A stretch of DNA of 64,000 nt from assembly GCF_009937995.1 (NCBI RefSeq), contig NZ_AP021881.1, positions 496,001 through 560,000 on the forward strand, read 5' to 3'. Positions 10,653-13,191 of the stretch are shown here, one piece after another. The notes beneath the pieces were generated by a model, which saw nothing but the letters and a program-made list of their open reading frames with translations, was not told the DNA's origin and did no database searches. Each line of letters opens with the position of its first letter. The stretch's first letter is position 1. The position numbers and the translations under genes were made by a program. This stretch comes from Sulfuriferula nivalis (GTDB lineage Bacteria; Pseudomonadota; Gammaproteobacteria; Burkholderiales; Sulfuriferulaceae).

Positions 10653-10908
10653 CGTTAAACCTCGTGTGCTGTGTGTATGTAATTACTGCTGCTAGTTTAT
10701 AGCAAAACGGGGGTGATGCTTGAGGAAGTGGTGTCTTAAGACATTGTTGCTCATTGCACTAGATGTTGTGATTGAACTGCTGAGAGAGTAAATGACCGCC
10801 AAATTTAAGGCCTGATATTCGCTTTCCTGCAAAGCATTAAGCTTGGGACACCCCCCTTCTGCACCACCACGTAACGTCGATAAAGTCGGGAACCGTCGGC
10901 GAGGACTA
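10653..10908. other. Intergenic spacer between bestrophin gene and IS element
   Basis: I see no gene or RNA here. The bestrophin promoter should lie near 10660-10740, but no convincing hexamers stand out. The last about 100 bases (from roughly 10810) resemble the repeat-like DNA found on the other side of the IS, and together they form the probable insertion target. Confidence 0.4.
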
Positions 10909-10913
10909 ATGTA

Positions 10914-10925
10914 ATGGACGCTCCC
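10914..10925 (+). repeat. Left subterminal inverted repeat of the IS
   Basis: ATGGACGCTCCC matches the inverted copy at 12313-12324 at all 12 positions. It starts one base inside the ATGT junction tetramer. Confidence 0.85.
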
Positions 10926-10997
10926 TTCCTAAAATGGCATCTCGGTGCCAAAGTAGTGATTGCACAATCACCACGCAACCAGAAAGGAGTGTCCACT

Positions 10998-12047
10998 ATG
11001 AAGATTACGACGATTGGAATTGATTTGGCAAAGACTGTATTTCAGATTCACGGTGTAGATGAACATGGCAAGGCGATCTTGCGTAAACGGCTTAATCGAT
11101 CAGAGATGACAGTATTCTTTGCCAAGCTAGCACCCTGTCTGATCGGCATGGAAGCCTGCGGCAGCGCACATCACTGGGCCAGAAAACTAAGCCAGTTCGG
11201 TCATGTTGTAAAGTTGATGGCACCACAATTTGTGAAGCCATATGTCAAAACCAACAAGAACGATATGGCTGATGCTGAAGCCATTTGTGAAGCAGTAGCA
11301 CGACCCAACATGCGCTATGTTGCTGTGAAAAATATCGAGCAACAGGGGGTGCTATCGATCCATCGTGCGCGTGCCGGATTTGTAAAAAGCCGAACCGCAC
11401 TAGCCAATCAGATACGCGGATTGCTCGCTGAATTTGGCATTGTAATCCCGCAAGGCATTCGCTCTATCATGAAGAAAATGCCATCAATACTGGAAGATGA
11501 GGAAAACGGTTTGCCAGGTGTGATGCGCAATCTCATGCGCGGATTGACTGAGCATCTGAAGGGGCTGGACACACTGGTTGCAGAATTGGAAATACAGATT
11601 CAGCGGTGGCACCGTGAGAGCGATGCCAGTCGGAAGCTGGAATCTATTCCTGGCATTGGCCCGATCACAGCGAGCGCGATCGTGGCAACTATTGGCAATG
11701 CAAGAGAGTTTAACAATGGTCGCCAGTTGGCTGCATGGTTGGGTTTGGTACCCAGGCAACACTCAAGCGGGGGCAAGCCAACACTGTTGGGGATTAGCAA
11801 ACGGGGTGATGCGTATCTGCGAACTTTGCTGATTCATGGTGCGCGGTCGGTGATCCGGGTTGCAGAAACGCGGATGGATGGTGATAACTGGCTGCGTAAG
11901 TTGTTGGCAAGGCGAAACAGGAATGTAGCGTCGGTGGCGTTGGCCAACAAGAATGCACGGATCATCTGGGCACTGCTGGTGCGTGAACAGTCATTCCAAC
12001 CTGGTTATGTTACGACAGGCAATTGGGCTGTGACATCTTCAGACTAA
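10998..12047 (+). CDS. IS110-family transposase (DEDD recombinase)
   Basis: A 349-residue transposase. The N-terminal RuvC-like domain carries the acidic residues D9 (GIDLAK), E52 (GMEACGS), D89 and D92 (KNDMADAEAI). The C-terminal Tnp20 domain begins around residue 218 (SIPGIGPITASAI) and contains RQHSSGGK near residue 255, where the family's catalytic serine sits, followed by GISKRGDAYLRTLLIHGARS. The enzyme cuts and rejoins DNA guided by an element-encoded RNA. An in-frame ATG at 10914 falls inside the terminal repeat. The start at 10998 has AAAGGAG (10983-10989) at good distance and opens on the conserved MKITTIGIDLAK, so it was preferred. Confidence 0.95.
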   Translation: MKITTIGIDLAKTVFQIHGVDEHGKAILRKRLNRSEMTVFFAKLAPCLIGMEACGSAHHWARKLSQFGHVVKLMAPQFVKPYVKTNKNDMADAEAICEAVARPNMRYVAVKNIEQQGVLSIHRARAGFVKSRTALANQIRGLLAEFGIVIPQGIRSIMKKMPSILEDEENGLPGVMRNLMRGLTEHLKGLDTLVAELEIQIQRWHRESDASRKLESIPGIGPITASAIVATIGNAREFNNGRQLAAWLGLVPRQHSSGGKPTLLGISKRGDAYLRTLLIHGARSVIRVAETRMDGDNWLRKLLARRNRNVASVALANKNARIIWALLVREQSFQPGYVTTGNWAVTSSD

Positions 12048-12094
12048 GAGGGTATCAGGGCACTATAGTTGAAATAGCAGGTTCAAAGTGTAAG

Positions 12095-12270
12095 TTCCAC
12101 AGATTGCTCAGGCAATCATGATGTGATGGTTAGACAGGTCAGACCGTGAGTGGCGTAACCTGCCTCAGACAAGGCACTTCGAGTGCGCAGGACTATAAGG
12201 TTCTACTCAGCGGATTCCATCAGGGACAGAAGCAAAAGCTTCACCTAAAGTCCGGATGTATGGCTGCAAT
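12095..12270 (+). ncRNA. Candidate bridge RNA (seekRNA) of the IS element
   Basis: Downstream of the transposase the non-coding end folds into three parts. First is a stem-loop GATTGC-TCAG-GCAATC (12102-12117). Second is an internal loop closed by AACCT/AGGTT (12157-12161, 12198-12202) and capped by GCACT-TCG-AGTGC (12174-12186). Its 5' side CTCAGACA (12164-12171) is complementary to the right flank TGTCTGAG (12328-12335), and its 3' side AGGACTA (12189-12195) is identical to the left flank (10902-10908). Third is a loop closed by CAGC/GCTG (12208-12211, 12263-12266) with inner stem GGAC/GTCC and hairpin GAAGC-AAAA-GCTTC. Its 5' side TCCAT (12216-12220) is complementary to the left IS end (10914-10918), and its 3' side ATGTATG (12256-12262) is identical to the right IS end (12323-12329). 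This is the target-loop then donor-loop layout known for IS110/IS1111 guide RNAs. RNA ends are approximate. Confidence 0.8.
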
Positions 12271-12312
12271 CTTTACCTTTCTATCATCATCGATTGAAAG
12301 CTTGGCATAACT

Positions 12313-12324
12313 GGGAGCGTCCAT
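12313..12324 (-). repeat. Right subterminal inverted repeat of the IS
   Basis: GGGAGCGTCCAT is the exact inverted copy of 10914-10925. Two bases separate it from the ATGT junction tetramer at 12327-12330. Confidence 0.85.
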
Positions 12325-12330
12325 GTATGT

Positions 12331-12522
12331 CTGAGACCGCAGGCCGAGTTCCGCAGCCGCCCACTTTGTTAGCCGCTACGTGGGAAGTCCGCAGGACTGG
12401 CACAGCGGGGTGCCCTTCTCTTAGCTTATTTTCTCTTGGGCAAGCAAGAGAAAGTAACTTGCCGTCGGGCAGTCCCGGCTTACCAAAACATGCAACTTGC
12501 GTGAATGTTAGAATTGACCCCA
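12331..12522. repeat. Repeat-like non-coding DNA flanking the IS
   Basis: No credible gene is present. A 13-bp hairpin with one wobble pair lies at 12426-12457 (TTATTTTCTCTTG, loop GGCAAG, CAAGAGAAAGTAA). The surrounding text (GGGTGCCC ... CTTGGGCAAGCAAGAG ... GCCGTCGGGC) resembles a short dispersed element I know from many proteobacterial genomes, sometimes mis-called as small proteins. At 12498-12522 (minus strand) is a 25-base motif starting TGGGGTCA that recurs at 38939-38963 with 20 matches. The transposon appears to have inserted at the edge of this repeat. Copy number cannot be checked within the window. Confidence 0.5.
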
Positions 12523-12543: not shown

Positions 12544-13191
12544 TCACCGCATTAATTTTTTTAGTTCTTCAATAGTAAATGGGGGTGTTCTCCTGTGAAG
12601 CATGGAATGACAATTGGGGCATATTGGCCGTAAATCTTTTACTGGGTCTAACTCATATAGTTTGCCAATTTTAGATATTGGCGTGATGTGGTGAACATGA
12701 ATAAAATCTAGCCCAATTTCACCATATATATTTTCGAAGTCCATATCACATACGCTGCATTTGTGACCATAATGATCTATGCATTTATCTCTCGCAGTTT
12801 TGCTTCTTTCATACTTATTAACATTTATCTGTCTTACCGCACCTTCGAAGAAAGTATCTGAAACATCATCTGGATAATTGATATCTATTTTTGCAGCTAG
12901 AGCTTCTGCTTTTTTTATTCCGAGTTCAGTTAATTCCCATACACCATTACCTGATTTTTTGGCATTGTGAAGATATTTGTAATCTACGAGTACTTTTCTG
13001 GCCCATTGCACCATATTGTTCCATTGTGGACGGTTCGTTCCGTCCGATAGTAATCGCATCGTTTCTTCATTCGTTAGATTGAAAATTTTTGCTAGTGGCT
13101 CGTAACATGATGAAGAGCTAACCTTTCCGCCTTTTTTATATATATTTAAAAGAAGTGGAATTTCTATTTCTTTGTAGCTGGGAAATGACAT
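12544..13191 (-). CDS. Mrr_N-HNH endonuclease (restriction-like)
   Basis: A 215-residue two-domain protein. Residues about 5-98 form the Mrr N-terminal winged helix (IPLLLNIYKKGGKV, then WNNMVQWARKVLVDYKYL, then GVWELTELGIKKAEAL). Residues 130-205 form an HNH nuclease of McrA type with the zinc knuckle C145/C148 and C191/C194, the HVHH core at 165-168, and CPNCHSMLHR. Such proteins cut DNA, often modified DNA, as host defence. No methyltransferase or specificity gene is adjacent, which favours a solitary type IV-like enzyme; that is inference. The gene is clearly more AT-rich than its neighbours and lies between an IS flank and lipA, both signs of recent acquisition. Confidence 0.85.
   Translation of the reverse strand: MSFPSYKEIEIPLLLNIYKKGGKVSSSSCYEPLAKIFNLTNEETMRLLSDGTNRPQWNNMVQWARKVLVDYKYLHNAKKSGNGVWELTELGIKKAEALAAKIDINYPDDVSDTFFEGAVRQINVNKYERSKTARDKCIDHYGHKCSVCDMDFENIYGEIGLDFIHVHHITPISKIGKLYELDPVKDLRPICPNCHSMLHRRTPPFTIEELKKLMR

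Follow-up and report, generated by a model that had tools for sequence, protein, structure and literature searches.

RNA-guided insertion, by a seekRNA or a bridge RNA, is an established mechanism among insertion sequences (IS). In the part of the seekRNA study available to us, IS1111 elements encode a transposase with the family motif GL-P----S(t)G and have subterminal inverted repeats (sTIR), usually 11 to 13 bp long, with asymmetric extensions of 7 bp past the left repeat and 3 bp past the right; an 82-nt seekRNA was sufficient for the movement of ISEc11 (PMC11187229). Likely donor-binding nucleotides in IS1111 bridge RNAs were suggested by Durrant et al. (available part of PMC11208160). 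IS elements aiming at palindromic (REP) repeats are also described in the accessible portions of two papers (PMC1525189; ISPa11 in PMC11187229). The 64,000-nucleotide stretch of Sulfuriferula nivalis DNA analyzed here (the window) holds a further element of this type, for which the sequence evidence is unusually complete.

An intact IS1111-group element

The window contains an intact insertion sequence that the initial annotation had recognized as a member of the IS110 family. Its profile matches (NF033542, 2.9e-111; PF02371, 3.4e-28; PF01548, 3.3e-14), its motif, its sTIR, and its 7+3 ends confirm this and place it in the IS1111 group. The parts of the element are as follows.

10907 to 12327, + strand: IS1111-group insertion sequence, 1421 bp, defined by the sTIR, the 7/3 extensions, a second copy, and intact empty sites
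10907 to 10913, + strand: left terminal extension, TAATGTA (TAATGG[AT] in close relatives)
10914 to 10925, + strand: left subterminal inverted repeat, ATGGACGCTCCC, 12 bp, perfect
10998 to 12047, + strand: transposase gene, 349 amino acids, IS110-family RNA-guided transposase (NF033542, PF01548 plus PF02371, GLVPRQHSSG)
12313 to 12324, + strand: right subterminal inverted repeat, GGGAGCGTCCAT, 12 bp, perfect
12325 to 12327, + strand: right terminal extension, GTA, placed by the 7+3 rule and kept in relatives

The transposase frame is intact (translation of positions 10998 to 12047), and both the DEDD (RuvC-like) N-terminal domain and the Transposase_20 C-terminal domain were matched at the profile level. 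The sequence GLVPRQHSSG corresponds to the IS1111 motif. On the 3′ side of the gene lies a 265-nt noncoding stretch (12048 to 12312), which contains the RNA fold described below.

The left boundary had to be moved. As read at first, the left flank took in two bases, TA at 10907 to 10908, which the 12-bp sTIR and the 7+3 rule assign to the IS. TAATGG[AT] and GTA recur at these positions in close relatives whose flanks are unrelated, so the TAATG-type left end and GTA are bases of the element, and a 5+5 placement of the ends was rejected for this reason.

Landing site in a dispersed palindromic repeat

With these ends, the flanks join into the 14-mer GAGGAC/TGTCTGAG (slash, insertion point; also written GAGGACTGTCTGAG), the left flank ending with GGCGAGGAC at 10906. 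The exact 14-mer was intact at 12 places in 6 of the 18 genomes of the genus, none of them in the element's own genome, and one-base variants occurred at 7 further places in the genus, three of them in the own genome. Around each of the 12 exact places, the sequence is that of the repeat itself. The landing site is therefore GAGGAC/TGTCTGAG, with no target duplication. The empty site proposed earlier, GAGGACTA-ATGT-CTGAG, had to be abandoned, as its 16- and 17-base forms were found at 0 of the 242 fetched loci; GAGGACTA followed after 0 to 25 bases by CTGAGACCG had no match in the own genome. A search of that genome for GGACTATGTCTGAG with up to 3 mismatches was uninformative because the reversed control gave more matches (295 versus 139).

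The interrupted repeat occupies both flanks.

10853 to 10906, + strand: left part of an interrupted palindromic intergenic repeat (contig match 506853 to 506905, equal to window positions 10853 to 10905; last base from the empty-site comparison)
12328 to 12477, + strand: right part of the same repeat, from the repeat match

The repeat is about 200 bp long and strongly palindromic: one set of inverted arms spans 24 nt (88%), another spans 14 nt (100%), and the single-strand DNA fold has a z score of -6.88. The insertion point falls in the apical part of its long hairpin. Matches were found in 9 of the 18 genomes of the genus, 2 to 10 in each, partial ones included; a further example is at positions 1430 to 1690 of locus L034. 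The neighbours of the repeat in the window are a bestrophin gene on one side and, on the other, a gene for a protein with Mrr_N and HNH endonuclease domains (12544 to 13191, - strand), which adjoins the element and possibly encodes a restriction-type nuclease.

Within the own genome, both IS copies are flanked by the two halves of the exact GAGGAC/TGTCTGAG site, and each of the five uninterrupted repeat copies is mismatched to it, either by one base (GAGGATTGTCTGAG, in two copies, and GAGGACTATCTGAG) or by two (GAGGACTATTTGAG and GAGCACTGTTTGAG); a sixth match is partial and does not include the insertion-site region. This pattern, with the exact site at the IS flanks and a mismatch in every intact copy, is guide-like, although the numbers are small.

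A predicted, conserved RNA fold 3′ of the transposase gene

Comparison of sequences from 19 relatives predicts that the region following the transposase gene forms a conserved RNA fold. Its parts are a long stem, an internal loop with a hairpin that closes it, and a second domain; both the stem and the hairpin covary.

12107 to 12281, + strand: predicted guide (seek/bridge) RNA domain (covariance model R1, 174.7 bits; fold covariation)
12174 to 12186, + strand: hairpin GCACTTCGAGTGC between the target arms, a covarying stem

Model R1 was built from 19 sequences that include the window RNA. In the fold, 94.4% of 701 cells were paired (19 sequences) and 87 cells were changed on both sides, as opposed to 31.9 in shuffles, with the covariation score equalled in 0 of 500 shuffles; these counts were made on the same sequences that yielded the fold, and the shuffles do not preserve relatedness. 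Sliding the pairing partners lowered pairing to 35 to 49%. The hairpin at 12174 to 12186 was put into the fold by hand. Folded as a single sequence, the window's noncoding region is ordinary (z score, -0.73), and a search of the window against Rfam at the gathering threshold returned five tRNAs and no guide-RNA family. The two-loop architecture first read in the window is kept in homologues.

In the own genome, the covariance model found two RNAs, which are those of the two IS copies. Among 399 sampled genomes of the order, own genome included, 47 had matches to the RNA family.

The first loop matches the landing site

Two arms flank the hairpin of the first loop, the T arm lying 5′ of the B arm, which is the order found in IS1111 seekRNAs.

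12164 to 12171, + strand: T arm, CTCAGACA, right target guide, complementary to the right flank TGTCTGAG (12328 to 12335) at 8 of 8 positions
12189 to 12194, + strand: B arm, AGGACT, left target guide, equal to the left flank AGGAC plus the first target base T

The strings quoted in the initial annotation are all in place: CTCAGACA at 12164 to 12171, TGTCTGAG at 12328 to 12335, AGGACTA at both 12189 to 12195 and 10902 to 10908, TCCAT at 12216 to 12220, and ATGTATG at 12256 to 12262. The reading of AGGACTA as left flank holds as a string match, but the flank reaches only to AGGAC and the final TA are IS bases; the real match is AGGAC/T, 6 nt, beyond which the B arm departs from the target (6 of 8 positions). 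In 5,000 dinucleotide shuffles of the noncoding region, the four quoted words arose by chance in 1.4%, 2.1%, 27%, and 1.7% of cases, and all four together in none. The 5-base donor word is not significant alone (27%).

We extended the comparison to relatives. The survey of the order counted 82 RNA places. Sixty were fetched, after exclusion of the 17 weakest, two short matches in G330, G105:C19, and the element's own two copies. From 88 sources, 80 RNAs were aligned (8 had no RNA match). Automatic detection of the ends was dropped because it chose chance inverted repeats at many loci, and guides and flanks were extracted by one motif rule. Sixteen of the 80 rows had no usable right flank and T arm, and the other 64 contained 49 distinct arms.

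The T arm matched its own right flank at a mean of 6.43 of 8 positions, as opposed to 3.51 in mispaired combinations (0 of 10,000 permutations; 49 distinct elements). Nineteen of these elements had 8 matches, 8 had 7, 8 had 6, 8 had 5, and 6 had 4 or fewer, so that 14 of the 49 matched at no more than 5 positions. For the B arm and the left flank, the means were 6.29 and 3.72 of 8 (0 of 10,000; 35 rows, 21 distinct); these permutations ignore shared ancestry, but guides and flanks do vary from element to element. The register of the target arms is conserved in the RNA fold. By this covariation between guide and flank, the first loop of the downstream two-domain RNA is read as encoding the target, as had been proposed.

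Copies with the same RNA in a single genome were also scored for the T arm (six G229 copies, 7 to 8 of 8; three G196 copies, 6 to 7; five G001 copies, 5 to 7) and for the B arm (5 to 7 of 8, 6, and 5 to 7, respectively), the B arm being looser, as in the G229 copies. The six G229 copies (L176 to L181) share their guide arms and have AG(C/T)AGC(A/G)CA to the right of every copy, with varied left flanks; they are a natural gauge of the tolerance of each guide arm.

A candidate donor loop

Two further arms lie in the second domain.

12214 to 12222, + strand: donor arm 1, ATTCCATCA, complementary to the outer left end TAATGTAAT at 7 of 9 positions
12256 to 12262, + strand: donor arm 2, ATGTATG, equal to the right IS end ATGTA plus the core TG

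Both had been assigned to the IS ends before, and the first assignment needed correction. TCCAT lies in the right loop, but the register of pairing in the family is that of ATTCCATCA with the outermost TAATGTAAT, not with the sTIR. ATGTATG equals the right IS end over ATGTA, and its remaining TG is the core. The donor arm 1 match is lower in the window element because its left end, TAATGTA, departs from the TAATGG[AT] of close relatives at one position.

Across subgroups, arm 2 follows the right end and core (4.09 versus 3.07 of 5 nt; 0 of 10,000 permutations; 32 distinct pairs), and it does so for the extension and the core tested separately (0 of 10,000 each; 26 distinct combinations). The test of arm 1 was weak (6.05 versus 5.76 of 7; 13 of 10,000). 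None of the donor-arm permutations is corrected for ancestry, and subgroup ancestry could give part of the signal.

It is conceivable, if somewhat unlikely, that the target loop is real and there is no separate donor loop, the transposase reading the IS ends through the sTIR and ATTCCATCA and ATGTATG being scaffold or chance matches. The sufficiency of the 82-nt seekRNA for ISEc11 would agree with this, as would the seekRNA model, which has no donor loop in the available part of PMC11187229, the presence of TCCAT in about a quarter of the shuffles, and the weak result for arm 1. Arm 2, on the other hand, tracks the right end and core both jointly and separately, ancestry uncorrected, and the donor-binding nucleotides suggested for IS1111 RNAs (PMC11208160, as available) also speak for a donor loop. 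Pairing between the second loop and the joined ends of the IS is probable, with weaker support than there is for the target loop.

State of the element and its second copy

The B arm of the window element reads AGGACT-AT and is one nucleotide short just after AGGACT. All 76 aligned rows from relatives, some of them multiple copies from a single genome, are longer there by one or more nucleotides (the other 4 of the 80 rows are 2 without letters at this place and the element's own 2 copies). By the alignment, the absent position could equally be the second core base or a base beside it.

The second copy in the own genome lies at about 2678964 to 2680384 of G000:C1. The two copies align over 1,569 bases, 1,540 of them identical (98%), with no gaps. 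Mismatches inside the IS are confined to its 5′ part, the noncoding region being identical throughout, and the right flanks are identical for 35 bases and then diverge. Target, orientation, and RNA are the same in both. The only other copy found therefore occupies the same site as the first, and none with this RNA was found at an unrelated target in the own genome. Possibly the two copies do not represent independent events, and the pattern could reflect gene conversion; independent insertion followed by gene conversion and spread by recombination between repeats are indistinguishable here.

These features bear on whether the element is a decaying copy, with an RNA that no longer works, matches that are a fossil of past targeting, and a second copy made by homologous recombination between repeats. 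The nucleotide absent from the B arm, the left end unlike that of close relatives, and the noncoding region and 35 right-flank bases exactly common to both copies speak for this reading. The intact transposase frame, the two perfect sTIR, the fully matching T arm, and the same RNA at the exact site in both copies argue the other way, and we regard decay as unlikely. The element may still be active despite the base missing from its 3′ target arm.

Core bases and the circle junction

The target core is TG and the left end of the IS starts with TA; the B arm of the window element is without one core base or a base beside it. In 19 of 22 distinct elements, IS and right flank begin with an identical base, and in 5 of 22 they agree in their first two. 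Not all four guide pairings thus include the core dinucleotide, as they do in IS621, and for this reason we file the element as IS1111 and not as an IS621-type bridge element.

Joining the two ends in a circle would form a promoter sequence.

12302 to 12307, + strand: TTGGCA, -35-like half of the predicted circle-junction promoter, with the -10 TATAAT formed by 12326 to 12327 joined to 10907 to 10910

The predicted junction reads TTGGCA, 18 bases, TATAAT. In 26 of the 26 distinct junctions listed, the -10 position at the joined ends was TATAAT, TACAAT, TAGAAT, or TAAGAT; in relatives this likeness is partly built in, because the motif rule that places the ends demands ATG within the left extension and, on the right, an extension from a short list. 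For the window element, the ends were instead fixed from the sTIR and the empty site. A simple promoter scan of the integrated form (10800 to 12450) gave 0 promoter-like sites, with 1.7 expected.

The A at the second position of the left end may thus be kept for the promoter and not for the guide. Tentatively, and with rather less than even confidence, we suggest that this IS1111 subgroup uses a complete RNA of the bridge type, in which both target arms and the right-end donor arm contain the core; the left end would share only the first core base because it must also build TATAAT. If so, a promoter and a recombination code overlap in the same two bases, and the window RNA may have lost one core contact yet still work.

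Proposed mechanism

Taken together, the element is an IS1111-group IS, and an RNA encoded in its 3′ noncoding region most likely guides the transposase in the choice and orientation of the landing site, a reading that we hold with high confidence. The two arms of the target loop would specify GAGGAC/TGTCTGAG in the apical part of the dispersed palindromic repeat, and the second loop would probably pair with the joined ends. Abutting in a circle, the ends would create the TTGGCA-N18-TATAAT promoter for expression of transposase and RNA, and reinsertion would leave no target duplication. The ends, the empty site, the covariation of the fold and of guides with flanks, and the junction promoter sequence were read here from DNA; RNA production, formation of a ribonucleoprotein, the circle intermediate, and strand exchange would follow by analogy with experiments on relatives. 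In the IS1111 family, the RNA co-purifies with the transposase and is indispensable. That the guide-flank matches are due to chance, or that the transposase or the repeat structure alone picks the target, is very improbable: the target does lie inside a strongly palindromic repeat and short words match easily, but no permutation reproduced the agreement of either target arm among distinct elements with different targets, and the arms keep their register in the fold.

Relatives and comparison with known systems

The exact 40-base target-loop stretch had 0 matches in viral contigs and, in plasmids, only a 39-base near match. At lower identity, plasmids carry IS110-type relatives, at least 20 among the matches listed covering at least 80% of the IS.

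One group of IS1111 relatives (L151 in G061; L153 to L157 in G001, of the same genus) has the guide arms CAGGAGA and ATGATG, which resemble a Shine-Dalgarno sequence and a start codon. These six and L169 (G064) sit, in 7 of 7 cases, 7 to 9 nt upstream of an ATG with which a frame of 86 or more codons begins. The downstream proteins differ: one is a short-chain dehydrogenase, three are without a Pfam match, and the others have below-cutoff likenesses to CusF, MFS, and HTH_17. The 5′ arm of L169 matches its own flank poorly (2 of 8), and L158 is not of the translation-start type. Possibly, this group consists of RNA-guided IS aimed at translation starts in general, which, if truly targeted, would be a striking choice of address. 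In G233, three copies of a related element (L183 to L185) have CTAACGAA both beside the left end and in the guide; the motif rule for the ends failed there. We take CTAACGAA to be reminiscent of integron attC sites. Such sites are a known target of ISKpn4-type elements.

The earlier suggestion that such an RNA and target pair is readable here for the first time may hold for this element, and no paper recognized as dealing with it was met in the open-access literature, where it was not searched by name; target matches in IS1111 RNAs as such are established in the available parts of PMC11187229 and PMC11208160. At this locus, the guide, its target, the empty site, and the ends of the IS are all readable and can be cross-checked, which makes it a natural worked example. 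Dozens of aligned natural guide-target pairs make the pairing rules of IS1111 RNAs testable, including the presence of a donor loop, on which the founding papers PMC11187229 and PMC11208160 differ in the parts at hand.

As described in the accessible part of PMC11187229, ISEc11, ISPa11, and ISKpn4 share with the window element a DEDD transposase of about 340 to 350 amino acids with the GL-P----SG motif, sTIR with 7+3 extensions, no target duplication, and a downstream noncoding RNA in which the top-strand match lies 5′ of the bottom-strand match. The window element differs from them in its target and guide and in a 3′ target arm without one nucleotide, and its probable donor loop sets it apart from the seekRNA model given there. 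Like other REP-targeting IS, ISPa11 among them, it uses one position and one orientation in a dispersed palindromic repeat, but this repeat, at about 200 bp, is not a classic short REP (PMC1525189 and PMC11187229, as available). With the bridge RNA of IS621 and IS110, as far as the available part of PMC11208160 describes it, the window RNA shares two loops with two arms each, the core being read by both target arms in most relatives. Unlike that RNA, it lies in the right and not the left end of an element with long sTIR, its arm order is reversed, and its target core TG and left-end TA share the first base only.
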